The notes beneath the pieces were generated by a model. That model was given only the letters and a program-made list of their open reading frames with translations. It did not search any database and had not been told where the DNA came from. From Bacteroidota bacterium (lineage in GTDB: Bacteria; Bacteroidota; Rhodothermia; Rhodothermales; Bin80): a DNA stretch of 39,152 bases. The position numbers were made by a program, and so were the translations under genes. Shown here piece after piece: positions 946 to 18,847 of the stretch. The stretch is from the NCBI GenBank assembly GCA_026709065.1, contig JAPOTS010000096.1, positions 1 to 39,152 of the forward strand, in the 5' to 3' direction. Every line of letters begins with the position of its first letter. The stretch's first letter is position 1.

Positions 946-1425
946 GATAGAGACTTTGGTTTAGTGTTATGAAGCATCTAGGAAATGATACAATTGCAAA
1001 CAAAAGATACCCCATTAATAGGAATCACGATTATACAAGTATTACAAGTCATGCCTTATTGGAGTGATCCTATATTTTCATTCGGCATACTTCAGTCTAC
1101 CATGATCTATGATCAATGGAGTAGAATCAGATTAAGTTTGGTCGAATTAAATGAATAGTCTTTATATTTAATTCAGAACTGACATTGTCTTCTCTTCGCT
1201 ACGGCGAGACTGAAAATCATTTGAACATCTTGCACTTTCTTATCAATACAAATCGTTGATGTTGCATTTGTTCAGCTCTCATGTTAAGTTACTGCACCAT
1301 GAGGTTGCTAAATTTACTTGCTCTCTAATGAAAATGCACGAATAATTGAATAATGTTTTTAAATTGTCGGATAAATTATCCTCTTCACCAATGGACAAGA
1401 TTTGCAATTCATTGAGAGCTTAATC
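946..1425. other. Divergent intergenic region between cas6 and cmr2
   Basis: 480 bp of AT-rich sequence that must hold the promoters of cas6 (minus) and the cmr operon (plus). I find no repeat copy, no strong hairpin and no clear sigma-70 promoter. A 10-codon ORF (ATG at 1391, TAA at 1421-1423) ends just before the cmr2 start; it is probably chance. Confidence 0.5.
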
Positions 1426-3984
1426 ATGTTTAATAAATTTGAGACGGACTGGGAATTAATCTTACGGGCATGGATGCATGACCCTGTAGATAAGGCTTTG
1501 TCCATTCAGAATCATGAAAGCCGTGCTGGACATTATCTATCAGTTGCTCTCAATGATGAATCCTTTTCTATAAACCAATTCAAATCTGTCAAATCTGCTG
1601 ATATAAACGCTTCAACGGCCGATAGGCTACCAATGCCCAAAGCTGGAGTAAAAGGTGAACGAGCGGTAGGCCCTAAGGATGGCCCAATTAAGGTGTATCA
1701 TCCTATCAGTGCACAAAAGCATCAACTGGCTGAGTACGAAATAGATATGAATGGAGTTGCTGAGGTGATCAATGGAATTGTCAGAGGACTCCCATCATCT
1801 CCCAAGATCCGCTTCCTTGCACTTTGGAGACTGTTGCCAGATGCTCTCAATAAACGTTTTGGATTTGACTTTACAAGATTACCTGCAGATACAAGAGTTC
1901 CAGATCACTCACTCATTCAGCATGTAGATATTACAAGCGGATTGATGGCAGCACAACAACAGAAGCATGGTTATGCGATTTTATCTGTGAAAATTGGCCC
2001 AGTCCAGAAGTTTATTCAGGACGCTAGAAGTGTTCGCGACTTATGGTCTGGAAGTGCAATATTGTCATGGCTCATGTTTCAGGGGATGCGTCCAATAATT
2101 GACAGTTTGGGCCCTACAGTATTCGTTTTTCCAGCATTGCGCAGAAATCCGCTGGTTGACATTTGGTTACGCAGTTTATCTGATGAGCTTAATCAGTTGA
2201 TCAATTTGCCCTCTTTACAAACACGAAAGGCACCATCTCTGCCAAATTCATTTGTAGCTTTATTACCTAATGGTCGTGATGGTAAAACTGCACTAGAATT
2301 TACGCGTCAATGCGAGACACGTATCCGATCAAAATGGCGCGAAATGTCAAATACAGTTCTAGAAAGACTTGATAAGGAGTTTTCCAACTACGACCCAAAC
2401 TGGGCTCTGAACTGGAATGCTCAAATTGATAGTTTCCTTGAAATTACCACTTCAATATGCCCTACACATAAATTGCATGATATGGAAATGGCGAGCCTAA
2501 TTGGAGACAAAAAGACATTTGGAGAGGTATGGAAAGATGCCCATCTTGTCCGTCAAATGGGAAATGACATTCCCTCGGAAGACGCACCAATGTTTCGCCA
2601 AGTGAGTGCAGGACAATGGCAAGCTCAGTTAGAAGTTTCCTCACGGATCGCTGAAGCCCAGCGAACTGTTCGCCATATACCACAGGTATCACTGACCAGA
2701 CCTGCAGGTCCTAAATGCAGTCTAATGGGAACTTATGAGCAAGTAGGACCAGCTAATCTTCAAGAATCAGCTGACTTTTGGGCTGACATATGGGAGCACA
2801 AGTGGGAATTTCAATATAGAATTCGGAAACCTGACAGACTCTGTGCAGTCGCATTATGTAAGCGTTTTGCACCAGATTTAGTCCTTAATAATCAGTTCAA
2901 ATTGGATGAGAGTAGTGTACCATTCCCTGATACTACAACGATTGCTGCTCAACAGTGGATGGATGATTATAATATTACGGGCAATAGTGAAAAGATTTGG
3001 AATGGTAGATGGATTCACCAAAAACGCCCAGATGAAAATGGAGAATCTGCTCCAGAGGAGCTGTGGTCACAGATCAAAAGAGCAAAGAAAGACTCCACTC
3101 CCCCATCGTATTATGCCGTTCTTGTGATGGATGCAGATGATATGGGACTCTGGCTGAAAGGAGAAAAAGCACCTTTGGTCAGAGAAGTGATGCATGAAAA
3201 ATTAATTCATTATTTTGAACAATTGAAACCTAATGGACTTGAAGCTAAACGCCCTTTACATCCTGCATTACACTCGTCTATTAGCGAAGCATTAAATAAC
3301 TTTGCCAGCGTAGTAGTACCTAACACCGTGGAACGCTTTAAGGGTACTTTGATATACTCAGGTGGAGACGATGTACTTGCGCTTCTTCCGACGCGTAATG
3401 CAGTTCAGTGTGCTTTTGAATTGCAAAGAGCATTCATCGGTCAAAATGATCGATACCCTGGCTGGACAGAAATTGAAGGGCAGCAATTTCTAATGATGGG
3501 TTCCAAAGCGACGCTTTCAGCTGGAATTGCATTTGTTCATTACAAAGAAGATTTACGATTAGCATTACAGGCTGGACGAGATGCTGAAGGAAAATCTAAG
3601 TCTGTGGAGGGTAAGAATCGACTAACCCTCCATTTTATGCGTCGATCAGGTGATCATCCAACAAGCGTTATTTCATGGGATCTTGTGCCTTGGTTTCAAC
3701 AGGCCGTGAAAACATTTTCGGAGGACATCTCTGATCGTTGGCTATATCAATTGCGGCGTGAATCACACGTCCTTTCCGATCCAAATCTTCCTCCCGATGC
3801 GGTGAGTGCTGAGATTAAACGTTTGCTTTCTAGATCTGATGTAAGCGATGATGTATTCACTTTTGAAGGCAAAACTTGGTGGTCATATTTCTGTGATCAA
3901 GAGCATGAAGTGAACGATAGACTTCAGAAATTTATAAAGCTTTGTTTAGGCGCTTCATTTGTGGCCCGTGGATATGATGCATAA
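1426..3984 (+). CDS. cmr2: Type III-B CRISPR Cas10 protein Cmr2
   Basis: Large subunit of the Cmr effector, 852 residues from ATG 1426. I prefer this start to an upstream TTG at 1402 because GAGAG lies about 6-10 nt before it. HD sits at residues 18-19 in WMHDPVDKAL, the Cmr2 N-terminal nuclease motif. The palm domain has VMDADDMG (D569-D572) and an intact SGGDD (G646-D649), so cyclic oligoadenylate synthesis is expected. A mid-protein CSLMGTYEQVGP segment occupies the zinc-ribbon position but shows only one cysteine. It is the first gene of the plus-strand operon, and its end overlaps cmr3. HD cleavage activity is inferred from the motif alone. Confidence 0.95.
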   Translation: MFNKFETDWELILRAWMHDPVDKALSIQNHESRAGHYLSVALNDESFSINQFKSVKSADINASTADRLPMPKAGVKGERAVGPKDGPIKVYHPISAQKHQLAEYEIDMNGVAEVINGIVRGLPSSPKIRFLALWRLLPDALNKRFGFDFTRLPADTRVPDHSLIQHVDITSGLMAAQQQKHGYAILSVKIGPVQKFIQDARSVRDLWSGSAILSWLMFQGMRPIIDSLGPTVFVFPALRRNPLVDIWLRSLSDELNQLINLPSLQTRKAPSLPNSFVALLPNGRDGKTALEFTRQCETRIRSKWREMSNTVLERLDKEFSNYDPNWALNWNAQIDSFLEITTSICPTHKLHDMEMASLIGDKKTFGEVWKDAHLVRQMGNDIPSEDAPMFRQVSAGQWQAQLEVSSRIAEAQRTVRHIPQVSLTRPAGPKCSLMGTYEQVGPANLQESADFWADIWEHKWEFQYRIRKPDRLCAVALCKRFAPDLVLNNQFKLDESSVPFPDTTTIAAQQWMDDYNITGNSEKIWNGRWIHQKRPDENGESAPEELWSQIKRAKKDSTPPSYYAVLVMDADDMGLWLKGEKAPLVREVMHEKLIHYFEQLKPNGLEAKRPLHPALHSSISEALNNFASVVVPNTVERFKGTLIYSGGDDVLALLPTRNAVQCAFELQRAFIGQNDRYPGWTEIEGQQFLMMGSKATLSAGIAFVHYKEDLRLALQAGRDAEGKSKSVEGKNRLTLHFMRRSGDHPTSVISWDLVPWFQQAVKTFSEDISDRWLYQLRRESHVLSDPNLPPDAVSAEIKRLLSRSDVSDDVFTFEGKTWWSYFCDQEHEVNDRLQKFIKLCLGASFVARGYDA

Positions 3985-5068
3985 TCAATCCGACATATTA
4001 TGCCTATCATTGCGTCCGATTGATACCCTTTTCTTTCGGGATGCTCGTCCATTTGGGCCATCTAGGCAAGCGAACTCAGGTCTACCTTCACCTCAAACAT
4101 TGGCTGGTGCGATTCGTACCCTTCTACTTGAAGCACATGGTGTTAACCTCCAGAAATTTGGAGAAAAAGTTCGTGCAACAAAATCTTTTGATCAAGCACT
4201 CCGAGAAATGGGAGGCGATGTTTCCGCGATTGCAGACGTTAAAATTGCTGGACCGTGGTTGTGTAGGAATGAGGATATCCTAGTTTCAATGCCGGCCAAC
4301 CTAAAATCAACTAAATCATTATTGTCATCATTCACCCAAGAAGATCTTGTTCGGTTAGATCCATTAAGAACACCCCCTCACGGATGGCAACCAAAGGAAA
4401 AAGGACTGCTTCCGCTTTGGTATTATGGGAGAAAATCTCTAAAATCATTAAACGAATGCTATCTGACACTTAAAGGAATGGATGCATATCTAAACGGTGG
4501 CATACCAGAAATCAATACCATTGTCAATGTAGATAAATTGTACACGATTGACCGTCGAGTGGGAATTGGAATTGATGGAAAACTTAACACTACAGCGGAG
4601 GGATTAATTTACTCTGCAGGTATGTTGTCTCTTAAAAAAGATGTCTCGTTTTATGCTGAAGTGAAAGGTCACAGTAGTACGATTGATCCATTAAACCAAT
4701 CCAGCATACTGATGAAATTCGGGGGAGAGGGAAGACATGTGGAGGTTTCGACTCGTACAGGTGCAATTTGGCCAGAAGTATCTTCTAAGGGTGGAGACGG
4801 AAATTTATTGGTTCTTACGACACCTGCATGGTTTGATGGCTGGAAGCCTAAGAATCTTTCTTGTATGGCTGCAGCCGTCCCTGGGTTTGATGGAATTTCC
4901 GGTTGGGATTTAGCATTAGGTGGCCCAAAACCAAATCGGTTTATGGTTCAATCTGGTTCAGTTTATTATTTGCGACATAATGAGAAGTTATCACGAGATT
5001 TGGTAAATTATGATGATTCACTCGTTGGATGGGGAAAAAATTTAAAAGGAATTTGGAAATATGTATAA
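3974..5068 (+). CDS. cmr3: Type III-B CRISPR RAMP protein Cmr3
   Basis: About 364 residues. The N-terminus is typical of Cmr3: LRPIDTLFFRDARPFG followed by GLPSPQTLAGAIRTLL, the beta-alpha start of this Cas5-like RAMP subunit. By family knowledge it binds the 5-prime handle of the crRNA next to Cmr2. The open frame extends to a TTG at 3959, but ATG 3974 (or 3977) is the better start. It overlaps the cmr2 stop by 11 bp, which suggests translational coupling. Confidence 0.93.
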   Translation: MMHNQSDILCLSLRPIDTLFFRDARPFGPSRQANSGLPSPQTLAGAIRTLLLEAHGVNLQKFGEKVRATKSFDQALREMGGDVSAIADVKIAGPWLCRNEDILVSMPANLKSTKSLLSSFTQEDLVRLDPLRTPPHGWQPKEKGLLPLWYYGRKSLKSLNECYLTLKGMDAYLNGGIPEINTIVNVDKLYTIDRRVGIGIDGKLNTTAEGLIYSAGMLSLKKDVSFYAEVKGHSSTIDPLNQSSILMKFGGEGRHVEVSTRTGAIWPEVSSKGGDGNLLVLTTPAWFDGWKPKNLSCMAAAVPGFDGISGWDLALGGPKPNRFMVQSGSVYYLRHNEKLSRDLVNYDDSLVGWGKNLKGIWKYV

Positions 5069-5939
5069 CAATGCAATTATGTTTGTGCATGCTCTTACGG
5101 GGCTCCATCCTGGAGGTGGAACAGCACTTGGTGTCATTGATCTGCCAATACAGCGCGAACGACATACAGAGTGGCCTATAATCCCAGGCTCATCGCTAAA
5201 AGGTGTTCTTCGCGCTAAATGCAATGATCTGTCAGATTATCAACCTAATCAATGCCCCGATGTGTTGGCTGCATTCGGATCTGACACATCTTCCGAATCT
5301 GATCACGCTGGCGCTATGTCAATCACGGACGCTCGCATATTAGCATTTCCCGTGCGATCACTTTCTGGAGTCTTTGCTTGGGTGACATGCCCCGAGGTAT
5401 TACTACGGTTTTCACGTGACTGTAAAATCCTAAATGCAAGTAGTTTAGACAGTGTTCCTCAACCCGAAAAAGACAATGCTATCTGTAGGCGTAAGAGTCC
5501 TTTAATAGTAGGAGAGGACAAAATAATCCTTGAAGAGTTTGAGTTTTCAGTCATGTCTCACGACATAAACTTTGAATTCGCAGATAAAGCCTTTGCAGAT
5601 ATGAATACTCAAAACCGTTTTAGAGACCATCTGGTGATTTTACACGATGATGATTTCACTTATTTCGTGCGCAATGCTACGGAAGTTGTTGCCCGAATAG
5701 GGTTAAATTATGAAGATAAGACAGTACGTAAAGGAGCTCTATTTTATGAAGAATACCTGCCTGCCGAGACGCTTCTCTATGCACTTGTACTTTGCAATAA
5801 AAGTCGCCTCAATCACCATGAGCGTTCGTCTGATCAGATTTTACAGTGGTTGAATGATCAGCATATCAAATTTCTGCAGATTGGTGCTGGCGAGACGATA
5901 GGCAAAGGACTCTGTGGTATAAACATCACCCGATTATAA
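5061..5939 (+). CDS. cmr4: Type III-B CRISPR RAMP protein Cmr4
   Basis: Cas7-family backbone subunit, 292 residues. The N-terminus reads LTGLHPGGGTALGVIDLPIQRERHTEWP and then PGSSLKGVLRAK. The Asp of IDLPIQRE (D27) matches the position of the Cmr4 residue that cuts target RNA every 6 nt. The C-terminus has the glycine loop GAGETIGKGLCG. ATG 5061 overlaps cmr3 by 8 bp and has AAGGA about 10 nt upstream. An internal ATG at 5079 is a possible alternative start. Confidence 0.94.
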   Translation: MYNNAIMFVHALTGLHPGGGTALGVIDLPIQRERHTEWPIIPGSSLKGVLRAKCNDLSDYQPNQCPDVLAAFGSDTSSESDHAGAMSITDARILAFPVRSLSGVFAWVTCPEVLLRFSRDCKILNASSLDSVPQPEKDNAICRRKSPLIVGEDKIILEEFEFSVMSHDINFEFADKAFADMNTQNRFRDHLVILHDDDFTYFVRNATEVVARIGLNYEDKTVRKGALFYEEYLPAETLLYALVLCNKSRLNHHERSSDQILQWLNDQHIKFLQIGAGETIGKGLCGINITRL

Positions 5940-5948
5940 GATCATTTC

Positions 5949-6368
5949 ATGAATAAGGCTACCCAAGAACAACTTCGTGCCAGACATGCTTGGAACGTTG
6001 TTGATAAGGCATGCAATCAGCGATCAAAAGATTTTGCGGGAGATTTTGCAGCAGAAGTCAAGCGTCTTCCCATTAGGATTCGTACTGTTGGACTTGGACA
6101 AGCAATCCGTTTTGTTCTTGCAAAGTCAAAGAATGATGATCATCGTAGTTATCTGTTAATTGCTCTTGGGGAGTGGCTTTTGAAAGAGCAAAAACTTGAT
6201 ACACGGCATAGGAATGGATCTATTGATGGCTCTGCACTTATCTTGGCGATTATAAATAATGATGCGAATTTTCTGCGTAGAGCTACTGAGGAATCTCTAC
6301 TTTATCTGCAATGGCTGACACGTTTTTGTGAAGCAACTATCAAGGAAAATGGAAGTGAATCAGAATAA
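5949..6368 (+). CDS. cmr5: Type III-B CRISPR small subunit Cmr5
   Basis: A 139-residue, mostly alpha-helical protein lying between cmr4 and cmr6, the usual place for the Cmr small subunit. The N-terminus (QLRARHAWNVVDKA) and the segments PIRIRTVGLGQAIRFVLAK and YLLIALGEWLL fit the Cmr5 family. It would form the inner filament along the target RNA. It starts 9 bp after cmr4 and its end overlaps the next gene by about 20 bp. Confidence 0.9.
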   Translation: MNKATQEQLRARHAWNVVDKACNQRSKDFAGDFAAEVKRLPIRIRTVGLGQAIRFVLAKSKNDDHRSYLLIALGEWLLKEQKLDTRHRNGSIDGSALILAIINNDANFLRRATEESLLYLQWLTRFCEATIKENGSESE

Positions 6369-8634
6369 AAATATTTTGATTCGAGAAGGGCCGGTGATAC
6401 CCGACCCTACTTATTCTTTGGTCAAGGATATACTATCAGGGTCCCAAGAAAATGTCCATACCGGATTAATGCTTGATAAGTTCTCCATCTTCCCCCAGTA
6501 TAGCAGCCGCCAGAATGCGGAAGGAACTATGGAAACTCAGAAAGACGCGTTGCTGTCAATATGTGAATCTATGAGCGACCAATCTTTGTTAAGCGAATTG
6601 AATGCACGTCGAATAGCCATGCTTTCAGCGATGGATGCTCAATTACTATCAATGCGGACTCAGGGAGCGTTGACCCTGCACTTATCTCGCCCAGGCGTTT
6701 GGGAAAACGCTGGCATTTTATTACACCCGATCTATGGTTTTGTCTATTTGACAGGTAGTGGTCTAAAAGGCCTTGCACGCTCCTATGCTGAAACTGTATG
6801 GGCACCTGCTCAATCTAATGAAGAATCAGCATGGCATAGTATTGAGGAGGCGTTTGGATTTACAACCAGCTCTGAAGGGCACAAAATCCAAACACATGAC
6901 TCTGGATGGCGCCCGTCTGAGATACCTTTTCCCGACTGTACTGCCACTGGTCGTTTGATTTTTCATGATGCATGGCCTTCAAAATGGCCACAACTTGAAG
7001 TGGATATCGCAAATAGCCATCACAGTAAATACTACCAGGGTCATGGACAACACCCTGACGATACCGAAGATACAATCCCAGTGTATTTCCTTGCTGTGGG
7101 ATCAGGTGTAGAGTTTCAGTTTGCAGTTTCTGACAGGAAGCACCATTCAAACTCTCTGGTTGAGCAAGGTATTTGTTGGCTTCGAGATGCATTAATTGCT
7201 GAGGGTGTAGGCGCTAAAACCGCTGCAGGATATGGCCACTTCATTGCAGATAAGATGGTGAATGTGGCACAAAGTCATTCGGTTATTCGCAGGGAGCATG
7301 ATTTAGAGTTGATTTCCATGGCCTTTTTGGCTGGTGCAAATCAGTCAAAAGAGGATTGTGATCTTAGACCTGCTACACTACGAGGGTTGCTGCGATGGTG
7401 GTGGCGCACGATGCACACTGGACATGTTGATTTGGATACTCTGCGGAATCTGGAGTCAGCCATTTGGGGCGATACAGATAGAGGAAGCCCTGTTCAAATT
7501 TTATTGGATAGAGTATTTTCCCCAGAGATAGAACGTTTTAATAAAAATAAAATCAAACGGGATCTCAATAGTCAACATTCAGGGTATCGTGCAAATAAAA
7601 CTAATCTTGGATTAGCTTATGCATCTTATGGCATGGACGAACGGGACAGGAAGTCTCAACAACGGAAACAACGTTGGTATATGCAGCCGGGTAGCAAATG
7701 GCATCTTACTGTAAATACGAGGTCTGGATATTACATATCTGACGAGGGTAAGAAGCGATTGAAACCTGAGATTATACACCGTCAAGTTGATGCTGCACTA
7801 TGGTTATTTGCAAAATATGGGGGTGCAGGCTCAAGATCTCGCAAGGGTTTTGGCTCGTTTGAAGCTATTCCCATCAAGGGAATCAATTCCATTGACGACT
7901 GTAAAAAAATTGGCGAAAGTCTTAGAAAAAAGTGTAAAGTGTATTCTTCAGGGAATGTCAGGGCACCCAACATGGAAGAGGCAATAATATATAAATCGCA
8001 ACCAGTTACGAATTATCCTAACTTGGCTATCAGTTGGATTGGTGAGATAATTCAGAACTTTGCAAAACAACTGAAAGATGAGGGGTGTAGTAGAGAATCA
8101 CTCGGTTTACCGCGCAAGTCTAACCTTCAACGCCATGCTTCCCCTGCAGTATGGAGCCTATCACGAGATAAGAATGGAGATTTGAGTATACAATTGATTG
8201 GATTTCCGAGCGACAAGTTGCCTGACAGTGAGCAGGTCTTAAAGGATTTATGTCGTTACGCAGAAGAGAGACTCAAAGAAAAACATTTTATATCTATCTC
8301 AAGTCAACAAGAGCCGAGATCAGCCAGAGTTATTGCATCAAATCAACTAGATCAAAATATTATTTCAGCAGGAGTCGATCAAAAATCATCAAGACCCTCT
8401 ACTGGGGATCATATACGGGTCGTTGTATTAGATGAGAAAACTAAGAAAGGCAATGTCAAAGCAAAGCATTTAGATAGTGGGCTTATTGGTTCCATGGTGG
8501 ATACTAACAATGAACCTAATGATATAGAAGTAGGGCAAGAGAAGGTAGTGATTGTTCACTCTGTGAACGAAAATACTATTTCGTTCAGGTGGGAGCCGTT
8601 ACCGCGAAAAAAGAAACTATCACTACGTAAATAA
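6349..8634 (+). CDS. Fused Cmr6-Cmr1 RAMP protein with an extra C-terminal domain
   Basis: One uninterrupted frame of about 761 residues carries two RAMP subunits that are normally separate. Residues 1-300 look like Cmr6: YLTGSGLKGLARSYAE near 133-148 and the glycine loop GVGAKTAAGYGHF near 286-298. From about 310 on it looks like Cmr1: LRPATLRGLLRWWWR near 339-353, a following AIWGD segment, and a second glycine loop (GGAGSRSRKGFGSFEA near 490-505). The last 75 residues (TGDHIRVVVLDEK, then GLIGSMVD, IEVGQEKVVIVHSV and ISFRWEP) resemble a small OB/S1-like barrel; that reading is inference. ATG 6349 or GTG 6355 are the likely starts (AAGGA at 6342-6346). No separate cmr1 or cmr6 is present in the window. 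Confidence 0.88.
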   Translation: MEVNQNKNILIREGPVIPDPTYSLVKDILSGSQENVHTGLMLDKFSIFPQYSSRQNAEGTMETQKDALLSICESMSDQSLLSELNARRIAMLSAMDAQLLSMRTQGALTLHLSRPGVWENAGILLHPIYGFVYLTGSGLKGLARSYAETVWAPAQSNEESAWHSIEEAFGFTTSSEGHKIQTHDSGWRPSEIPFPDCTATGRLIFHDAWPSKWPQLEVDIANSHHSKYYQGHGQHPDDTEDTIPVYFLAVGSGVEFQFAVSDRKHHSNSLVEQGICWLRDALIAEGVGAKTAAGYGHFIADKMVNVAQSHSVIRREHDLELISMAFLAGANQSKEDCDLRPATLRGLLRWWWRTMHTGHVDLDTLRNLESAIWGDTDRGSPVQILLDRVFSPEIERFNKNKIKRDLNSQHSGYRANKTNLGLAYASYGMDERDRKSQQRKQRWYMQPGSKWHLTVNTRSGYYISDEGKKRLKPEIIHRQVDAALWLFAKYGGAGSRSRKGFGSFEAIPIKGINSIDDCKKIGESLRKKCKVYSSGNVRAPNMEEAIIYKSQPVTNYPNLAISWIGEIIQNFAKQLKDEGCSRESLGLPRKSNLQRHASPAVWSLSRDKNGDLSIQLIGFPSDKLPDSEQVLKDLCRYAEERLKEKHFISISSQQEPRSARVIASNQLDQNIISAGVDQKSSRPSTGDHIRVVVLDEKTKKGNVKAKHLDSGLIGSMVDTNNEPNDIEVGQEKVVIVHSVNENTISFRWEPLPRKKKLSLRK

Positions 8635-8642
8635 AATAACCA

Positions 8643-9980
8643 ATGGAGAAAGAGAAAGTCCCGTATATCCAGCAAAGGGTTTTGGTTCTAACCGTTGGTA
8701 CGGGAAGTGAGAAACAGTTGGAGAAGACGTTAATCAAGCCCATATTAAAGAGCATAGACGATGGCGAATGGGATACTATTATTTTGCTCCCATCTCATAA
8801 AACTTTACCTCATGCTCAAAAAATTCTTGATAGGACCAACACTTCCAATGTCATTTGTAAGCCTCTAAATATTTCTGGAATTGAATCCGATGCAGACAAA
8901 TGTTTTGGTCATTTTGATCGTGTGCTTGGTGAATTGATTCATCAGGGATTTGATCGGTCTAATATCACATTGGATTTTACCCGTGGAACTAAGGCAATGA
9001 GTGCTGCATTACTTATGGCGGGTATGTCAAGAGAAATTTCAAATATTCGCTATGTATCTGGAGATGAGCGTGATGATCGAGGAATGGTCAGGTCTGGTAC
9101 AGAGAGAATAGAGCAGGTTAACACCCGAGTGGTTGATACAAGGCAGTTACTCAATAAGTCCGAGAATCTTATGCAATGTGGCAATTTTGAAGCGGTGTGC
9201 CTCCTTCTCCAAAATAATTCTACCTCAGAATCGGCTGGATATCTATCCACATTGGAAAATGAGCTGAGAGAGATTAAAGCATCAGCTATAGTTTATCTTG
9301 CATGGGATAGATTTGATTATCAAGATGCAATTAACCAGTACAATGACAGAAGGAATCAATTTATTAATGGACGTTTTTCGCCGACTTTGGATATGCGTAA
9401 CTGGGTTGAATCCTTAGCAGATTATGATAGACACCAGTGTATTAGATCACAAACAACGTATGTACAGAAACTCTCATGTGATATGTTAGCCAATGCTGAA
9501 CGCCGCATGCGTGATGGGTTATATGAAGATGCTTACGTTAGATGTTATCGTGTCTTGGAGTTGATAGGACAGTACTGCCTCTTTAGTAACGGTTACGATA
9601 GTGGAAAACTGCCCCTTAGTGATCAAAACATTATAGCATTTGAGGAAAAACTCTTGAAAAAATCTGCAGAGCTGGGAAGAATCAAAAATGGTCAGTATGC
9701 TACAGCAGGGCGACTTCAGGTAGCCCGTTTACTTAAATTTTTGAATGATACTCGGGGGGAAAAACTTATTGATCTTGGCGATAAACACGATAGATATATA
9801 ACAAAAAACAGGAATAATAGTATATTATTTCATGGATTTACAGCAGCGAACACCGACCAAATAGCGAAACTTAATGATGCAATGAAGGATTTGGAAAATT
9901 TTTTGCTGGAGGATAGTAATTTCCCTGAGGCAAAGCAGTATTTAGATATCGCCCGAAGTATAAAATTTAGCCTAAATTAA
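8643..9980 (+). CDS. CARF-HEPN ancillary CRISPR protein, Cas02710/TIGR02710 family
   Basis: 445 residues. The N-terminal half is a Rossmann-like CARF domain: VLVLTVGTGSEKQLEKT at about 13-29 and LDFTRGTKAMSAAL with D111-K117, the ligand-pocket strand seen in this family. The helical C-terminal half ends with RNNSILFH (R390 to H397), which fits the R-x(4-6)-H ribonuclease motif of HEPN domains. Expected role: a non-specific RNase switched on by cyclic oligoadenylate made by Cmr2. It starts 8 bp after the cmr6-cmr1 fusion and 3 bp before cas1, so it is co-transcribed with both. The ring size of its ligand cannot be read from the sequence. Confidence 0.85.
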   Translation: MEKEKVPYIQQRVLVLTVGTGSEKQLEKTLIKPILKSIDDGEWDTIILLPSHKTLPHAQKILDRTNTSNVICKPLNISGIESDADKCFGHFDRVLGELIHQGFDRSNITLDFTRGTKAMSAALLMAGMSREISNIRYVSGDERDDRGMVRSGTERIEQVNTRVVDTRQLLNKSENLMQCGNFEAVCLLLQNNSTSESAGYLSTLENELREIKASAIVYLAWDRFDYQDAINQYNDRRNQFINGRFSPTLDMRNWVESLADYDRHQCIRSQTTYVQKLSCDMLANAERRMRDGLYEDAYVRCYRVLELIGQYCLFSNGYDSGKLPLSDQNIIAFEEKLLKKSAELGRIKNGQYATAGRLQVARLLKFLNDTRGEKLIDLGDKHDRYITKNRNNSILFHGFTAANTDQIAKLNDAMKDLENFLLEDSNFPEAKQYLDIARSIKFSLN

Positions 9981-9983
9981 AAC

Positions 9984-11030
9984 GTGCCAACACTCTATAT
10001 TACAGAACCTGGTGCTACAATTCGGTTCTCCTCAGGATCTATTGTCGTTACAGTTTCCAAGGATCCAGATGGCAGTGGACCATTGCCGACCAAGACCCAG
10101 CAACTAATTGAAGTAGAACCCCACCGTATAGAGCTCATTGCAATCGTAGGACGGATCCATATTACAGGTCATGCTGTTCGATTTTGCCTTGAAAATGGAA
10201 TCCCTGTGTCATGGTTCAAGCGAAATGGAGATTATTTGGGAAGAATGGTACCTGAACTTTCTCGTACAGCTGATATTCGCTTAGCACAGTATTCAACAGC
10301 AACTGATGCCAATCAATCACTGGCATTAGCAAAAGAATTCGTATCTGGTAAAATTCATAATTCCATTCATGTGCTGTCATCCATTCGTTCAAATCGCCCG
10401 AGTCATCCAGAACTTGGTTCTTCTCTGAATCGATTAAAGTCACTTCATGACGCGGTCTCAGATGTGACAGATCTATCATCATTATTAGGGTATGAGGGAA
10501 CGGCTGCACGAACTTATTTCAGTGGGCTTAAAGTTGGATTTGATGGTGAAATTCCGTTTAATGGTCGTGAAAAGAGGCCTCCACCCGATCCATCAAATGC
10601 TTTGTTATCATTGGGATATGTAATTTTGACAAATTGGTTGGCAAGCACAATAGAGTCTCATAATTTGGATCCATATCTTGGGTTTATGCATCAGCGTAGA
10701 TCAGGACGACCAAGTTTGGCATTGGATCTATTGGAAGAATTACGTGCACCAGTCGTAGATCGTTTTGTACTTAGAATGTGTAATCGTAGACAGTTGAGGA
10801 TGGAGCATTTCGAGAACGACTCGGAGGATAGAGGAGTTAGGCTTACTCGAAGCGGCTTGAGAATTTTCTTTCGTGCTTGGGAATCTATGTTGGACAAGCC
10901 TATTGCAGGGATTAGAACTGAGGATTCCCTTGAATCAATGATACGTTACCAAGTAAGTCTACTATCAAATCATTTAAGGCATAAAGAGAAATATCGTTCG
11001 CTTCGCCTTGGACAGGCATCCACACATTAA
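9984..11030 (+). CDS. cas1: CRISPR adaptation endonuclease/integrase Cas1
   Basis: 348 residues with a GTG start, 3 bp after the CARF-HEPN gene. Catalytic-site signatures are visible: E171 in GYEGTAARTYF, H236 in LGFMHQRRSGRPSLALDLLEELR, and the acidic pair D248/E251 after it. The N-terminal beta domain precedes GRIHITGHAVRFCLENGIPV. With Cas2 it inserts new spacers at the leader-proximal repeat. The protein is of normal length and is not fused to a reverse transcriptase. Confidence 0.95.
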   Translation: MPTLYITEPGATIRFSSGSIVVTVSKDPDGSGPLPTKTQQLIEVEPHRIELIAIVGRIHITGHAVRFCLENGIPVSWFKRNGDYLGRMVPELSRTADIRLAQYSTATDANQSLALAKEFVSGKIHNSIHVLSSIRSNRPSHPELGSSLNRLKSLHDAVSDVTDLSSLLGYEGTAARTYFSGLKVGFDGEIPFNGREKRPPPDPSNALLSLGYVILTNWLASTIESHNLDPYLGFMHQRRSGRPSLALDLLEELRAPVVDRFVLRMCNRRQLRMEHFENDSEDRGVRLTRSGLRIFFRAWESMLDKPIAGIRTEDSLESMIRYQVSLLSNHLRHKEKYRSLRLGQASTH

Positions 11031-11032
11031 TC

Positions 11033-11320
11033 ATGCCTCGATTTGCAATTGCATACGATATCTCTGATAATTCTCGTAGGCGTAAGGTAGCCAATTGCCT
11101 TGACTCTTATGGGGATCGAGTCCAGAATAGTGTTTTTGAGATGGTTGTCACCCAATCAATGTTGCAAGACTGCCTTATTCAAGTGAGGGATATCATTGAT
11201 TCTGCTGAAGATAAGGTGGTAGTTTATTTCATATGTAGCAATTGTGAATCAAAACGAATGTATTTCGGTAAAGGTGAGGAAGTTCGTAATATCGGAGAAG
11301 AAGATGTCTTTTTTGTGTAG
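11033..11320 (+). CDS. cas2: CRISPR adaptation protein Cas2
   Basis: 95 residues beginning MPRFAIAYDISDNSRRRKVA, with the ferredoxin-like first strand and conserved Asp (D9) of Cas2. It starts 2 bp after the cas1 stop and is the last gene of the cmr-cas operon. It would dimerise and bridge two Cas1 dimers. The CRISPR leader begins directly after its stop codon. Confidence 0.94.
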   Translation: MPRFAIAYDISDNSRRRKVANCLDSYGDRVQNSVFEMVVTQSMLQDCLIQVRDIIDSAEDKVVVYFICSNCESKRMYFGKGEEVRNIGEEDVFFV

Positions 11321-11647: not shown

Positions 11648-14043
11648 CTATCAATGACTGCCCCGCTCATCAGGGGATTGAAACTCACTGGTCCTAGGAG
11701 AGATTGGATTTCATTTTCTTTTCGGCTATCAATGACTGCCCCGCTCATCAGGGGATTGAAACAGAATGTAAATAAATACTTCGTATAACATAGTTAGTAT
11801 ACTATCAATGACTGCCCCGCTCATCAGGGGATTGAAACCATAAATTTCATCATAACAGGTATCGCACTCCATCAGATCTATCAATGACTGCCCCGCTCAT
11901 CAGGGGATTGAAACGATGAGGTAGGTCCCTAAGAAGCGATCAATCAGGTGCCTATCAATGACTGCCCCGCTCATCAGGGGATTGAAACCTCGCATTAAGC
12001 GCGTCCTGAAAACTGTCGTGGGATTGCTATCAATGACTGCCCCGCTCATCAGGGGATTGAAACGGTTGGTGACGCATTAACAGCGTCCTGGAATGATTCG
12101 TCTATCAATGACTGCCCCGCTCATCAGGGGATTGAAACCACAGTGATGTATTGGTCCATTGGTTTAATGGATGTATCTCTATCAATGACTGCCCCGCTCA
12201 TCAGGGGATTGAAACACTTAATGGTGACGGGGCCGCCGGTAATAGATGTATCCGCCTATCAATGACTGCCCCGCTCATCAGGGGATTGAAACGATATGAA
12301 GACTTACAGGTTGTGATATAATTATACTCAACCTATCAATGACTGCCCCGCTCATCAGGGGATTGAAACCGGTTGGGTCTGCAATAGGGTAACGCTTGAG
12401 AATTTTAATTCTATCAATGACTGCCCCGCTCATCAGGGGATTGAAACTATTGTAAAAGACTGGATAACCCGGACGTGCTTTAACAACCTATCAATGACTG
12501 CCCCGCTCATCAGGGGATTGAAACGTTAAGCGCATCCTGGAAGCTGTTGTGGGATTGGTTACTATCAATGACTGCCCCGCTCATCAGGGGATTGAAACTA
12601 CTGCTTTACAGATGGACGTGATGCCATGCTTAAAGCATTCTATCAATGACTGCCCCGCTCATCAGGGGATTGAAACAGACACGTCCATTTTCATTCTTGA
12701 ACCGTCTTCATATCCATCTATCAATGACTGCCCCGCTCATCAGGGGATTGAAACCGTTCGTGATTGGATCGAGAAGTTGCAAGATTTCTTGCTATCAATG
12801 ACTGCCCCGCTCATCAGGGGATTGAAACCCATTCTTTAGCTTGGGGTGATAATTGCTGTAACAGCTATCAATGACTGCCCCGCTCATCAGGGGATTGAAA
12901 CTTATGTATTGATCTCTCATGAGATTTAGGTATGTATCCTATCAATGACTGCCCCGCTCATCAGGGGATTGAAACCTACTCCATAGTTCATTTACAACTA
13001 AGATGAAACCTGAAATTCTATCAATGACTGCCCCGCTCATCAGGGGATTGAAACAGAGTCTTGGATCCGTTTTGTGGAACGGGTGGCCTCCTGCTATCAA
13101 TGACTGCCCCGCTCATCAGGGGATTGAAACATATTGCACAAGGCGCTGAACAGGATCCAAAAGCCCTTGCTATCAATGACTGCCCCGCTCATCAGGGGAT
13201 TGAAACATGTCGTCTACTGAAGACATAGATATCACTACCATAGTACTCTATCAATGACTGCCCCGCTCATCAGGGGATTGAAACTTCGGGGAGTCGTTCA
13301 GGTGCCAGTGACACCGACAGCCTATCAATGACTGCCCCGCTCATCAGGGGATTGAAACAGTGGTATAGCAATCCTTTTAGGTCGTTATACTGACTCTTCT
13401 ATCAATGACTGCCCCGCTCATCAGGGGATTGAAACGAGCACTGTTTGGTAGTGATGGAACGTTCGTTAGTCTCCTATCAATGACTGCCCCGCTCATCAGG
13501 GGATTGAAACCTTGCGAGTATCATATCATTATTAAATCGGCACAATGGACTATCAATGACTGCCCCGCTCATCAGGGGATTGAAACTCAGTAGTACTTGT
13601 AGAAAGCACTACCATTGTACTCCCACTATCAATGACTGCCCCGCTCATCAGGGGATTGAAACTGACGAGAAGCTGATTTAATCTTGGGACGTAGTGCTGT
13701 CTATCAATGACTGCCCCGCTCATCAGGGGATTGAAACTCATCCGTAGTGGATGAACTGATCACTACCATAGTACTCCTATCAATGACTGCCCCGCTCATC
13801 AGGGGATTGAAACCTTGACAGTATACTCGCCAAGACGGTTTACTGGTTTCAACACTATCAATGACTGCCCCGCTCATCAGGGGATTGAAACTGGTTTGGT
13901 GGTAACTTCACGTGAGTTCTGCTTACCCCCTATCAATGACTGCCCCGCTCATCAGGGGATTGAAACACCACCTTTTTCAAGGTCTTGTGCGAGGGCTTCA
14001 AGTCTTCTATCAATGACTGCCCCACTCATCAGGGGATTGAAAC
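11648..14043 (+). CRISPR. Type III-B CRISPR array, 32 repeats and 31 spacers
   Basis: The repeat is 37 nt, beginning CTATCAATGACTG and ending GGGGATTGAAAC, and looks identical in all copies except the last. Spacers are 36-42 nt. Inside the repeat, CCCC (14-17) pairs with GGGG (26-29) and TCAAT (4-8) with ATTGA (30-34). Cutting after the GGGG gives the ATTGAAAC crRNA handle of type III systems, so transcription is on the plus strand. The 32nd repeat (14007-14043) has one change in the loop (G18 to A), as is usual at the old, leader-distal end. Related spacers are described under findings. Confidence 0.98.
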
Positions 14044-14078: not shown

Positions 14079-14116
14079 TTGTCAATTGGCTCCCCTGCTC
14101 ATCACGGCAATTGAAC
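14079..14116 (+). repeat. Decayed 33rd CRISPR repeat
   Basis: After a 35-nt spacer-like stretch (14044-14078) comes a sequence that aligns with the array repeat: it keeps TCAAT, the CTCATCA loop and a TTGAAC end, with many substitutions and small shifts. It now has a 7-bp inverted repeat, TCAATTG/CAATTGA. Its spacing (72 nt from the previous repeat start) matches the array period, so it is most likely an eroded terminal repeat. Confidence 0.75.
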
Positions 14117-14143
14117 AGAATTAATTTGCATCCCATTGATCCT

Positions 14144-15040
14144 ATGAAAAATCTTAACCTATTTTCTATAGTCGTTACTTTGCTATTTATTACATTTGAG
14201 GGGTTTCATTCAGCATTTGCCCAGAGTTGCAATTTCTCTTATGGGGCTTCGTCGCAAAACACTTCCTTGCAGAGTTCTTCCAACTCGTACTCAGTCCAGA
14301 GCTTAAATGTCCCGTGCTCAAGCCAGAGTAATATCAACCTGTACTCCGGTCAGAGCTACTCTAACCCGTCCTCCGATCAGAACTACTCTAACCCATACTC
14401 AGGTCAGAACTACTCTAACCCGTACTCCGGTCAGAACTACTCTAACCCGTACTCCGGTCAGAACTACTCTAACCCATACTCAGGTCAGAACTACTCTAAC
14501 CCGTACTCCGGTCAGAGCTACTCTAACCCGTACTCCGATCAGAACTACTCTAACCCATACTCAGATCAGAACTACTCTAACCCGTACTCCGATCAGAACT
14601 ACTCTAACCCGTACTCCGATCAGAACTACTCTAACCCGTACTCCTATCAGAACTACTCTAACCCATACTCAGGTCAGAACTACTCTAACCCGCACTCAGG
14701 TCAGCGTCCCTCTAACTCGTTCTCAACCCAGAGCGATATTGACCAGTACTCTATAATCAGGTTACAGGAACTTGTGCGTGGTGTCGTACCATTTGAATAC
14801 GAAGCAAAACGCCACAGGCAGTATTTAGAGGACCTCAGAGGGAAATTATGGTCTGCTTGTATCAGAGGAAACGGAGTTTGGGGGCCAACCCCAGAAGAAT
14901 GTACTGAAATAAAAAAGGATATTCAGGAAGAAATGGACAAGGTGAAAGCTACGATAGACTATTATTCTGGGCGTGCAAACGAATATTATAAGATGATGAA
15001 TGAGTACGGCGGAGATCCCCGTCGGAGTAATAACGATTAA
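14144..15040 (+). CDS. Exported low-complexity protein with tandem 9-residue repeats
   Basis: 298 residues from ATG 14144. A signal peptide (MKNLNLFSIVVTLLFITFEG, cleavage near AFA-QS) is followed by a Ser/Asn/Tyr/Gln-rich region with about 14 units of QNYSNPYS(G/D), then a charged helical C-terminus of about 100 residues containing two Cys (WSACIRG and PEECTEI). The family is not recognised. The repeat region is likely extended and surface-exposed (inference). The gene starts 27 bp after the decayed CRISPR repeat, so its promoter must lie in or before the array end, or it is read through from the array. An upstream TTG at 14111 is in frame but would put extra residues before a good signal peptide. 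Confidence 0.72.
   Translation: MKNLNLFSIVVTLLFITFEGFHSAFAQSCNFSYGASSQNTSLQSSSNSYSVQSLNVPCSSQSNINLYSGQSYSNPSSDQNYSNPYSGQNYSNPYSGQNYSNPYSGQNYSNPYSGQNYSNPYSGQSYSNPYSDQNYSNPYSDQNYSNPYSDQNYSNPYSDQNYSNPYSYQNYSNPYSGQNYSNPHSGQRPSNSFSTQSDIDQYSIIRLQELVRGVVPFEYEAKRHRQYLEDLRGKLWSACIRGNGVWGPTPEECTEIKKDIQEEMDKVKATIDYYSGRANEYYKMMNEYGGDPRRSNND
14351..14728 (+). repeat. 27-bp tandem repeats inside the low-complexity gene
   Basis: About 14 head-to-tail copies of a 27-nt unit (AACTACTCTAACCC followed by a variable TACTCCGGTCAG-like half). Units differ mainly at CCA/CCG with TCA/TCC and at the GGT/GAT/TAT codon. Runs of identical neighbours suggest recent expansion. Because 27 is a multiple of 3, copy-number changes keep the frame. 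Confidence 0.9.
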
Positions 15041-15249: not shown

Positions 15250-18200
15250 TCATCGAAAATGTACAAAGCGACCTGTCTGACTTTCTCTGCCCAGTGACGA
15301 TTGGGTTACCACTTGATACACATAGAGCCCTGATGGCAATGTCTCGGTATTGATAGATAACGTCTTTGACCATCCAGCCTCCATTTGCCTTTCTGGAAGG
15401 CTCAAAACCTTCCTTCCACTGATATCTGTGACCTCTACCTTGAGATGTGCTGAAGATGGAAGATCAAACGTCAGTAGTGTGTGATCCTGAAAAGGATTGG
15501 GATAATTACCATGAAGTGTAAATACTTTAGGCATAGATTCATCTTCGTTTGATACGGATGAACGAATATCCATCTTGAAGGATAACCGCCCCACAGCTCC
15601 ACTGTCATCCCTGGCTGAATACGTGAATTCAATCGGCATCTCAGTGATGGCCGATGGCGTTCCAGTCAGGGTGCGTGTTGATGACTGAAAACGCAACCCA
15701 CTTGGTAACGATGGGCTAATTGAATAGCTGATTGGTTCAATACCACTAGTGACAACTGGGAAAATCACTGGGGTGATTGGATGGTCTAAGACAAAATTCT
15801 GATCCTCTATTGGATGACTAAAAGCAAGGATACCGCATGTGCTACCCCGTACATTGGCAATCCTTTCCAACCATGCCTGATACTCCCTATCCTGAGGCGC
15901 ACATAACCCCTGCCCTTCAAACAAAAATGTATCCAGACTATCTAGGGCTAAAAGCTCTCTTGGTAGCGAACCACTAAAATCATTGTCTGAAAGATTGAGC
16001 CGCGTTAATCTCGTTAAACGTCCTAACTCAGACGGAACTCTACCAGATAATTGATTGCCTGACAAGTCTAATATTGACATCTTGGAAAGACTGGTAAGTG
16101 CAATTGGAATAGATCCCGTCAATGAATTTTGTGAAAGATCCAATAGCTCAAGATTCGTAAGATTTTTAAGTTCGGATGGGATCTCCCCTGTTAAGGAATT
16201 TTCTGGTAGAACAAGCCATTTCAAATGAGTGAGATCTCCGAACTCTATCGGAATCGTACCAGATAATAAATTCTCTCCCAAGTCAAGATACATTAGTTGG
16301 GGTAGTGCTCCCAGTTCGTGAGGAATTTGCCCTGATAACTGATTGTCACGTAACCCCAACCATTCAAGCTTCCAAAGATTTGACAGATCTAGGGGGATTT
16401 CACCCGTTAATGAATTTCCTTCAAGATTGAGCGACTTCAACTCGGATAGATTTCCCAGAGAAGCGGGAATGTCGCCATTAAACGAATTATCAAATATATC
16501 TAATACTCTTAGATGGCTCAGTTTCCCCAGCTCAGCAGGAATTGGGCCCGAAAGTGAATTCACTGAAAGATTCAACCTCTCCAACTCAGTAAGCCTCTGA
16601 ATTCCATCGGGGATTAGGCCCGAAAGCCTATTTCCCGACAATAACAATGTTCTTAACTGAGTAAGATTTGTTAGTTCATCAGGAATTTCTCCAACTAAAT
16701 TATTGTACTGAAGATTTAGCTCAGATACCCATCCATCAATTATCGTGAGACCATACCACTGCTGAAGCTCTTCTTCATTTGGAATGTCCCTGATATTCCA
16801 ATTAGAATTGTTACGCCATCGGTCGCCTGCAGTTCTAGTATACAAAACACTTAAACTATGGTGAATGGCTTCTATTGAACGATTAATAGGAAGTGAGAGG
16901 ATATGAGCAATATCTTCAATCCCATCCCCCTCAACTCGCGTATAGAATCGGACTCTTTGATTCGGCATTGCATCTGCTGTAACCCTAAACTCAAAGATCG
17001 CTTCGGCGGAATCTGCACCTGACAAGCCTCCAATAGAAACTTGATCTGTGGTCATCTCAAGAAATGAATAGGAGGACATGGGAATAATGGATACAGAGAC
17101 ATTAGAAGCATCCGAGAGATAATTAACAAAATTCGCCTTTATTTTAACATGATCTCCAGAGGTAATGCTTTGATTTCCATCATCATCTACCCATGACCAT
17201 TCTTTCAAACGAATTCCAGAAATTACGGAGTCTTGAACTACTGATAACGCATTGATAAAACCCCGTCCTAATTGTTGACGATACGCTGGATTCTGAGCAT
17301 CTATACTTTCTGCCGTGAATCGAATTTTTTCACGAATCGCATCGGGGGACAGATCTGGAAATTTCGTCTTCACAAGGGCCGCTACTCCAGAAACCAATGG
17401 AGCAGAAAATGAAGTTCCACTCACCTTTATGTACCGATTATCTGTTGCTGTCGTCAAAACAGACACGCCTGGAGCAAAAACGTCAACCAATCGTCCAAAA
17501 TTTGAGAATCTTGAGATCTGAGTGCTTCCTTTTTGGGTTGCACCAACTGAAAGAACTCTTGAGTGACCTGCAGGATAATAGGCAAATCGATCTATATTTG
17601 ATGCATTATTGCCTGCTGAAGCAATGATGAGTGCACCCATATCTGTGGCTAAATCCAACGATTGATTCATGAACTGAACATTCGAAATCTCGTCCACAAA
17701 ACCTCCCCAACTTACATTAATGATATCTGCTCCATTTGATGCCGCATAAAGGATTCCCTGATAGCCATATTTAATGCCTAAGCCAGATTCATGAGATGCG
17801 TTTATATGCATCAACGATGCATTCCATGACGTACCAGCAATTCCAATACGATTATCCGTCACCGCGGCTGCAATTCCAGCGGTCGCAGTTCCGTGCCAAG
17901 TAGGGGGAGCAACATTAGGTTGCCTGTCTGGATTGTTATCAGCTTCATCGTCATCCGATAAATCAATCCCATGAACATCATCAATAAATCCATTATGATC
18001 ATCATCTATACCATTGCCTGGGATTTCATCCTCATTTGTCCAGACATTTTCTAAAAGATCTTCATGCGCCCACTCTCCACCCCCATCCACGATGGCAATG
18101 ACTATTTTTGGATTCGCTGATTCACTTTTAACCTCATCCCAGACATCTGGAAACCCCATCTGATGGAGATCAACTTGCGATTCAAATTCTGGGTCATTCG

Positions 18201-18639
18201 GATCGGCGATCCCTATCAATGAATAGGTGTGTAAACGATGAATTACCACAGGCTCTGCATAAACAACTCCTTGAACAACAGAGAAACTCTCAGATACTTC
18301 AAGCGGAGCAACCTGTGCATGATAACGGACATAGTAGGTTCGTCGAAGGGCTAATAAATTTTTCCGAGTCGTTGGGGTTGGAGTGACGTGATCCAAGAAC
18401 GGATAAACACGCTCTATTTCATAGACTTCAAAGGTTGATCCCATCTGATCAAACGCAATCATCCCCGTATGGAGAGATTTTCTCTGAATATGTATCGTTG
18501 AATCAAACTGCACAATCACTACGCCAGATTGCACCTCGGGTATTCTCTGAGCAGACGAAACCGAAACAAAACACACAGAGACCAGACCAACGAATACCGC
18601 TAGGATATGACGGGAGCAGATACACCGTTTCATAACCAT
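15250..18639 (-). CDS. Exported subtilisin-like serine protease with leucine-rich repeats and T9SS sorting domain
   Basis: About 1129 residues from ATG 18639 (AGGG 7 nt upstream); an upstream in-frame ATG at 18744 would put 35 residues before the signal peptide. Order: signal peptide ending VSSAQ; peptidase S8 domain with catalytic D185 (AIVDGG), H249 (TWHGTATAG), the oxyanion-region NVSWGG and S410 (SGTSFSAP); 11 plant-type leucine-rich repeats with the L-x-G-x-IP pattern (about 635-910); a putative Ig-like domain (about 940-1025); and a T9SS type A sorting domain beginning near VFTLHGNYPNPF (about 1040-1129). It is probably secreted or surface-anchored through T9SS and degrades or binds external protein. 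It stands alone, convergent with the repeat-protein gene. Confidence 0.9.
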   Translation of the reverse strand: MVMKRCICSRHILAVFVGLVSVCFVSVSSAQRIPEVQSGVVIVQFDSTIHIQRKSLHTGMIAFDQMGSTFEVYEIERVYPFLDHVTPTPTTRKNLLALRRTYYVRYHAQVAPLEVSESFSVVQGVVYAEPVVIHRLHTYSLIGIADPNDPEFESQVDLHQMGFPDVWDEVKSESANPKIVIAIVDGGGEWAHEDLLENVWTNEDEIPGNGIDDDHNGFIDDVHGIDLSDDDEADNNPDRQPNVAPPTWHGTATAGIAAAVTDNRIGIAGTSWNASLMHINASHESGLGIKYGYQGILYAASNGADIINVSWGGFVDEISNVQFMNQSLDLATDMGALIIASAGNNASNIDRFAYYPAGHSRVLSVGATQKGSTQISRFSNFGRLVDVFAPGVSVLTTATDNRYIKVSGTSFSAPLVSGVAALVKTKFPDLSPDAIREKIRFTAESIDAQNPAYRQQLGRGFINALSVVQDSVISGIRLKEWSWVDDDGNQSITSGDHVKIKANFVNYLSDASNVSVSIIPMSSYSFLEMTTDQVSIGGLSGADSAEAIFEFRVTADAMPNQRVRFYTRVEGDGIEDIAHILSLPINRSIEAIHHSLSVLYTRTAGDRWRNNSNWNIRDIPNEEELQQWYGLTIIDGWVSELNLQYNNLVGEIPDELTNLTQLRTLLLSGNRLSGLIPDGIQRLTELERLNLSVNSLSGPIPAELGKLSHLRVLDIFDNSFNGDIPASLGNLSELKSLNLEGNSLTGEIPLDLSNLWKLEWLGLRDNQLSGQIPHELGALPQLMYLDLGENLLSGTIPIEFGDLTHLKWLVLPENSLTGEIPSELKNLTNLELLDLSQNSLTGSIPIALTSLSKMSILDLSGNQLSGRVPSELGRLTRLTRLNLSDNDFSGSLPRELLALDSLDTFLFEGQGLCAPQDREYQAWLERIANVRGSTCGILAFSHPIEDQNFVLDHPITPVIFPVVTSGIEPISYSISPSLPSGLRFQSSTRTLTGTPSAITEMPIEFTYSARDDSGAVGRLSFKMDIRSSVSNEDESMPKVFTLHGNYPNPFQDHTLLTFDLPSSAHLKVEVTDISGRKVLSLPERQMEAGWSKTLSINTETLPSGLYVYQVVTQSSLGRESQTGRFVHFR

Positions 18640-18847
18640 TTGATTGCCCTGAAGTACATCTAACCCAATTTCAGTGAAGGCCTTTAAAGCACTGATGATG
18701 GATTGGATTATTGATAGCATGAGCCATGAAAGAATTTTACTCATTCCGAAATAAACAAAATTCTTGCCCTCTATGGAACATTTCAGTCAACCGTTCATAT
18801 ATTGTTGGATGGGTATACCTTTGGGTATTATGTTGGTGTTTGGTGAA

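Follow-up and report, generated by a model that had tools for sequence, protein, structure and literature searches.

A Cmr6-Cmr1 fusion with an S1-type C-terminal domain in a type III-B CRISPR-Cas locus

Cmr6 and Cmr1 in one chain

In canonical Cmr-alpha complexes of type III-B CRISPR-Cas systems (Archaeoglobus fulgidus, Pyrococcus furiosus and Thermus thermophilus), Cmr1 and Cmr6 are separate subunits, and Cmr6 followed by Cmr1 is the outward order from the Cmr4 backbone. In the T. thermophilus complex, a Cmr1/Cmr6 heterodimer cradles the exposed 3' end of the CRISPR RNA (crRNA), and target binding begins at this 3' seed and needs both proteins (PMC8376896). Here we examine a stretch of 39,152 nucleotides from a Rhodothermales genome of the Bacteroidota (assembly GCA_026709065.1, contig JAPOTS010000096.1), referred to below as the window. 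Like the canonical systems it encodes all six Cmr functions, but those of Cmr6 and Cmr1 lie in a single protein of 761 residues (6349–8634, + strand), which ends in a further C-terminal domain.

Cmr6-Cmr1 fusions have been found, or have gone unremarked, in cyanobacteria. Cluster 4 of Microcystis aeruginosa FACHB-524, a III-B locus reported in 2025, encodes Cmr1 and Cmr6 as one 'Cmr1-6' protein (PMC11855584). Compared by its description only, this protein resembles ours in carrying Cmr1 and Cmr6 domains in a single III-B protein, and the report does not mention an S1 tail (PMC11855584); given its cyanobacterial host, it probably belongs to the III-Bv group. The III-Bv system of Synechocystis sp. 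PCC 6803 has no Cas6 homolog of its own and its crRNAs are processed by host RNase E (PMC9762709). On its plasmid pSYSA, the 649-residue protein WP_242018641.1 (20204–22153 of our retrieved locus, - strand) is annotated as 'RAMP superfamily'; it matched Cmr6 at residues 99–297 (8.9e-18) and Cmr1 at residues 343–606 (4.5e-10). By these matches it is a Cmr6-Cmr1 fusion whose annotation hides Cmr1, with the domains in the same order as in the window and no separate cmr1 annotated in the locus. The genes for Cas10, Cmr3, Cmr4, a Cmr5-type protein and the fusion are all co-directional there. A fusion like that of Synechocystis, without an S1 tail, is encoded by a Nostoc plasmid locus, and in the Anabaena cylindrica fusion the Cmr1 half is weakly recognized. 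The Synechocystis and window proteins are, however, only 16% identical over their alignment, we found no S1 tail in the former, and the window has a cas6 gene (91–945, - strand; PF10040 and PADLOC Cas6) where Synechocystis III-Bv has none. The window thus shares with III-Bv the Cmr6-Cmr1 fusion, but neither the Cas6-less locus nor a common clade with the cyanobacterial fusions (approximately unbiased (AU) test, p = 0.023; see below).

The fusion gene runs without an internal stop from the ATG at 6349 through the stop codon at 8634, in a frame that is open from a GTG at 6328. The NCBIfam profile for Cmr6, TIGR01898, matched residues 101–298 (106.8 bits; cutoff 51.1) and that for Cmr1, TIGR01894, matched residues 320–505 (42.1 bits; cutoff 28.65), so that each half represents a family of its own, with Cmr6 ahead of Cmr1; PDB sequence matches divided the protein in the same way. 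An AlphaFold2 model built from 12 relatives (mean predicted local distance difference test (pLDDT) score 71) agreed with this division, each half folding as its solved counterpart. Residues ~26–300 (6424–7248) matched solved Cmr6 structures (3x1l_H, Z 16.7; 9x25_I, Z 15.7), and residues 312–640 matched solved Cmr1 structures (9l7c_A, Z 22.8; 4l6u_A, Z 20.5; 4w8x, Z 20.1) in an alignment that covers both Cmr1 RAMP domains, which we place at residues ~312–645 (7282–8283). By the domain limits from profiles and structure, the linker between the halves is ~11 residues long (7249–7281), and it is short in relatives too. Each half retains its glycine loop, GVGAKTAAGYG at residues 286–296 and GGAGSRSRKGFG at residues 491–502, and the loop glycines are invariant across 12 aligned proteins. 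The N-terminal half therefore exceeds the Cmr6 profile cutoff and has the Cmr6 fold, and the second half exceeds the Cmr1 cutoff and has two RAMP domains. No other cmr1 or cmr6 was found in the genome (98.37% complete), where the RAMPs profile PF03787 matched Cmr4 and the two fusion halves only. On sequence and structure model together, the original prediction of an uninterrupted Cmr6-then-Cmr1 frame with both loops kept is confirmed, as is a separate C-terminal domain; two findings that would have changed that interpretation, a second cmr1 or cmr6 elsewhere and halves drawn from one family, did not materialize. Its placing of the two subunits as neighbors at the crRNA 3' end agrees with the published complex (PMC8376896).

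How such proteins escape notice can be seen in the PADLOC family PDLC01212 ('Cmr6', 499 positions), whose match to the window protein spans the junction of Cmr6 and Cmr1 and which covers the cyanobacterial fusions along most of its length. It is nevertheless named and typed as Cmr6 alone, which means that fused proteins are hidden inside a 'Cmr6' family. Pipelines then label the fused protein 'Cmr6' and score Cmr1 as missing, as happened for Microcystis (PMC11855584), and a large number of III-B loci may wrongly be counted as incomplete. Fusion in itself is already known or has sat unremarked within a known system, and the rarity implied by the original prediction is not supported, also in view of the spread described below.

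Joined RAMP proteins also characterize type III-E, in which Cas7 and Cas11 parts are fused and there is no Cas10 complex. The window model matched the III-E effector Cas7-11 (gRAMP), which has several Cas7-type domains per chain, at Z ~11 over residues 52–654, corresponding to two domains; we attribute this match to shared RAMP domains and not to descent. Only the Cmr6/Cmr1 end is joined in the window, whereas Cas10, Cmr3, Cmr4 and Cmr5 are encoded by separate genes in place of a single-chain Cas7-11. We rejected a direct link to III-E because Cas10 and separate backbone genes are kept. Nor is the idea of a parallel partial step toward III-E supported, the sole further joining among relatives being one Cmr5-Cmr6-Cmr1 fusion.

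Spread and origins of the fused design

Scanning GTDB contigs and IMG/VR with one sequence returned no relatives, and an alignment was then used as the query. It found 68 relative loci in GTDB genomes and no relatives in viruses. Within the order, the fusion is present in ten further genomes at 40–47% identity, mostly as near full-length matches, and across many phyla identity is mostly 30–47%. By their record titles, the relatives come from Rhodothermota, Binatota, Latescibacterota, Pseudomonadota, Acidobacteriota, Planctomycetota, Bacillota, Nitrospinota, Thermodesulfobacteriota, Omnitrophota, Hydrogenedentota, Sumerlaeota, Sericytochromatia and others, so the fused design occurs in more than 10 bacterial phyla. 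Cmr6 and Cmr1 share a single frame in 65 of the 68; the three not counted are a locus that stops at a contig end ahead of the junction (L109), one that is truncated or frameshifted (L108) and one with an ordinary separate cmr1 at the operon front (L110). An in-frame S1 tail is present in 42 relatives as well as in the window. The survey of cmr loci called for by the original prediction also showed a near-constant operon order, mostly cas10-cmr3-cmr4-cmr5-[cmr6~cmr1~S1]-csx1-cas1-cas2.

In a relative from a single-contig Rhodothermales genome (G011), Cmr5, Cmr6, Cmr1 and S1 lie in one frame (retrieved twice, as L048:5527–8217, + strand, and L010:1180–3810, - strand) that is open for 897 residues, or 876 from the likely start; its Cmr5 part scores 45 bits against the TIGR01881 cutoff of 27.9. 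In an Acidobacteriota metagenome-assembled genome (L101:5956–8036), the frame of a fused relative is broken between the Cmr1 domains, giving a Cmr6~Cmr1a and a Cmr1b~S1 part, through either re-splitting or sequencing error.

In normal III-B loci, cmr1 usually stands ahead of cas10 or between cmr3 and cmr4, so the fusion required relocation of cmr1 to a position behind cmr6. A group of loci from the same phylum (L122–L128; for example L122:9243–11668) has cmr6 and then cmr1 adjoining and unfused at the operon end. This order is a plausible pre-fusion stage, reached in that group by what was probably an independent relocation of cmr1. Six of these loci (L122 and L124–L128) also have two adjacent frames that each match the Cmr5 profile.

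In a tree of concatenated Cas10, Cmr3 and Cmr4, 34 of the 36 fused non-cyanobacterial rows formed one fully supported clade, with two fused Bacillota rows placed just outside it without resolution. AU tests were carried out on 25 rows, using unrooted trees with long branches. A single clade for all non-cyanobacterial fusions was not rejected (p = 0.108), while one that also included the cyanobacterial fusions was rejected (p = 0.023). These tests provide moderate evidence that the cyanobacterial fusion had a separate origin, for a total of two.

Three operons appear to have moved away from the effector altogether. In two Sericytochromatia loci (L099:4017–8355 and L094:3876–8442) and one from a record titled Cyanobacteria UBA7694 (L100:4313–7710), only cmr4, cmr5 and the fusion are present, and neither cas10 nor cmr3 nor an array adjoins them. 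The L094 and L099 fusions are S1-tailed, that of L100 is cut by the contig end, and Cmr4 lacks its active-site loop and the loop's Asp in all three. At another site, the L099 genome encodes a fused III-B locus that is complete, and it also has a cas1; Cas10, Cmr3 and Cas1 were not found in the L100 genome, for which no completeness is stated. From its gene content, the operon looks like a RAMP assembly that has departed from CRISPR immunity and has possibly been domesticated.

In the open-access literature, the range of our search, we found neither the S1-tailed form nor its spread described. The widespread S1-tailed lineage, its Cmr5-joined member and the Cas10-less Sericytochromatia offshoots thus seem to be undescribed. 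A tentative and rather speculative synthesis would be that S1-tailed Cmr6-Cmr1 proteins define a large unnamed III-B lineage with a single RNA-grasping head at the 3' seed, which had an origin separate from that of the cyanobacterial fusion and in which consolidation continues (Cmr5 having joined once). This lineage might then have given rise in Sericytochromatia to an assembly of Cmr4, Cmr5 and Cmr6~Cmr1~S1 that lacks Cas10, Cmr3 and the Cmr4 active-site loop, and that serves outside CRISPR immunity in another RNA-related job.

The S1-type tail and its possible role

The tail follows a variable linker (residues ~646–684; 8284–8400) that is gappy in the alignment and has pLDDT below 50 at residues 654–680. 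We folded the tail alone from an alignment of 43 sequences (pLDDT 80) and obtained a five-strand barrel at residues ~685–749 (8401–8595). Its structural matches in Foldseek and VIA-align were led by S1 domains, among them those of eIF2alpha, NusA, ribosomal protein S1, RNase R and exosome subunits in the Z 8–9 range, as well as those of Spt6 and Tex; the best, 2a1a_A, had Z 9.3 with a root-mean-square deviation of 2.7 across 70 residues. The tail is thus a five-strand barrel nearest to solved S1 domains, and on this model we consider it an S1-type OB domain, much as the original prediction had described it. Sequence profiles gave a different picture: matches from Pfam, PADLOC and PDB sequences were weak or due to chance, and the curated cutoff of Pfam S1 (PF00575) was not reached, with weak matches in two of the 43 tails (best E 0.0079) and none in the window's. 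We dismissed sequence-search matches to CD4 as chance. The proposed profile check therefore succeeded for Cmr6 and Cmr1 and failed for S1, the tail being identified by the fold search alone, and since no sequence profile reaches the S1 family our claim is limited to an S1-type fold and does not extend to membership of a named family. In 99 related genomes, all 12 matches of a profile made from the S1 tail lay within fused frames, and none were in genomes with separate cmr1 and cmr6. OB-type additions to this region of the complex have parallels, given that fusions to S1 domains are on record for other, Csx10-containing type III variants (PMC3150331) and that a solved Cmr6, 9arw_H, is annotated as CSD-domain-containing in its PDB sequence match.

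Because Cmr1 and Cmr6 sit at the crRNA 3' end in T. thermophilus, the fused protein is most likely the same head in one chain. We propose that this single-chain Cmr6/Cmr1 head caps the Cmr4 backbone of a III-B effector at the crRNA 3' end, where, by analogy to published normal Cmr complexes, it would present the 3' seed of the crRNA. Fusion would hold Cmr6 and Cmr1 at a 1:1 ratio and co-locate them. We are less sure of the S1 domain; on its flexible linker, and with the basic C-terminus that follows it (8596–8631 in the window; longer and rich in Arg and Lys in many relatives), it could act as an RNA-capture arm. The original prediction had suggested contacts near the 3' end of the target. However, crRNA and target pair antiparallel, which puts the Cmr6/Cmr1 end at the target's 5' side, so the arm would meet 5'-flanking target RNA or the free 3' end of the crRNA, and this contact would increase seed binding. 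Target binding would then switch on Cas10, whose cyclic oligoadenylate would activate the Csx1-type RNase, while Cmr4 would cut the target as in other III-B systems. Taken as a whole, a functional III-B complex with a single-chain 3'-end head and an S1 RNA-capture arm is the reading we consider probable.

Several observations count against it. The window's own S1 domain has a net charge of -3 and a short basic end, a weak charge profile for an RNA-binding domain. No S1 tail is recognizable in at least nine relatives whose Cmr1 is unbroken, and some S1-less relatives carry another, shorter barrel-like tail. The cyanobacterial fusions also have no S1 tail. The S1 domain must therefore be dispensable for a fused head.

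The fusion might instead be near-neutral, the result of cmr1 landing behind cmr6 and the intervening stop codon being lost, with nothing gained beyond co-assembly. This is possible, if clearly the less likely account. The unfused cmr6-cmr1 neighbors in the separate Bacteroidota group fit it, as do the seemingly independent cyanobacterial fusion, the joining of cmr5 in one relative and the split inside Cmr1 in the Acidobacteriota locus. Nevertheless, 65 of the 68 relatives have stayed fused at mostly 30–47% identity, and S1 was gained and kept; such retention suggests selection for the single chain.

As for the arm, the main rival to target capture is a role in crRNA maturation, in which the S1 tail grips the 3' end of the crRNA or brings in host RNases for 3' trimming. 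RNases and the proteins they work with often contain S1 domains (those of RNase R and the exosome are among the tail's matches), the crRNA 3' processing step is uncharacterized (PMC8376896), and the fused Synechocystis III-Bv system relies on host RNase E for crRNA processing (PMC9762709). Yet the fusion in that RNase E system has no S1 tail, so the two features are uncoupled, and the window locus encodes its own cas6; we regard this role as doubtful. Less likely still is that the tail serves for protein contacts, as a docking site for the Csx1-type RNase, for Cas1 or for another complex. Here csx1 lies directly 3' of the fusion gene in many relatives, the window's barrel is slightly acidic, and S1/OB barrels can bind proteins, as eIF2alpha does PKR in the best match, 2a1a. 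On the other hand, many S1-tailed relatives lack a full Csx1 in the retrieved flank, and CARF-HEPN enzymes of III-B systems work via a diffusible signal. Finally, the window is one of 139 contigs in a draft assembly, and an assembly or frameshift artefact could have joined two genes. Since ten further genomes of the order share the fusion, and many of the 65 fused loci are in unrelated assemblies, we give this practically no credence and rejected it.

If the single-chain head is correct, natural heads with S1 would provide a direct test of how the seed end is constructed and of whether extra RNA contacts alter sensitivity, a question of relevance to RNA diagnostics based on type III systems. 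Fusion in the same order on what were probably two independent occasions also shows that evolution repeatedly joins neighbors in the complex along the guide RNA.

The surrounding locus and neighboring genes

Apart from cas6, the CRISPR-Cas genes around the fusion are all on the + strand. The cas10/cmr2 gene (1402–3984) encodes a III-B-type Cas10 (TIGR02577, 239 bits; cutoff 79.4) with an HD motif at H26-D27 and GGDD at residues 654–657. It is followed by cmr3 (3959–5068; PF09700 and TIGR01888), cmr4 (5061–5939; TIGR02580), which has a GVIDLPIQRE loop with D27, and cmr5 (5949–6368; PF09701 and TIGR01881), whose last 20 bases are shared, in a different frame, with the beginning of the fusion gene; the Cmr3, Cmr4 and Cmr5 TIGR profiles all matched above cutoff. 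Downstream of the fusion lie genes for a Csx1-type CARF-HEPN RNase (8643–9980; TIGR02710) with the HEPN motif R390-x6-H397, and for Cas1 (9984–11030) and Cas2 (11033–11320), both identified by profile matches. The catalytic roles of the Cas10 HD and GGDD motifs, of the Cmr4 D27 loop in target-RNA cleavage and of the Csx1 HEPN motif are established, and all of these motifs are intact. With the Cmr1 and Cmr6 functions of type III-B both present in a single chain, the window is, judged from its genes, a complete type III-B CRISPR-Cas locus.

The CRISPR array (11648–14043, + strand) has 32 repeats of 37 nt, 31 of them perfect, and 31 spacers of 36–42 nt. Spacers 5 and 12 (within 11952–12599) have a common 30-base core with four differences, on one strand, and spacers 21, 26 and 28 (within 13170–13817) have a common 15–16-base core on the same strand. 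It is as if one conserved viral sequence had been sampled several times. A 30-mer derived from the spacers had no match in IMG/VR, and a 16-base pattern gave 11 short viral matches, compatible with chance.

Just past the array, a 309-residue frame (14111–15040, + strand) has a signal-peptide-like start and nine-residue repeats such as QNYSNPYSG, encoded in 27-nt units; it had no Pfam match. Further on are a gene for a 1164-residue secreted subtilase (15250–18744, - strand) with leucine-rich repeats, a putative Ig domain and a Por secretion tail, and two adjoining beta-lactamase/serine hydrolase genes (24178–27113, + strand; PF00144), which are probably a tandem duplication. A 542-residue protein (28434–30062, - strand) combines an N6/N4 DNA methylase domain with a subsequent Mrr-type nuclease domain and is possibly a restriction-modification enzyme in one chain, encoded close to the CRISPR locus.

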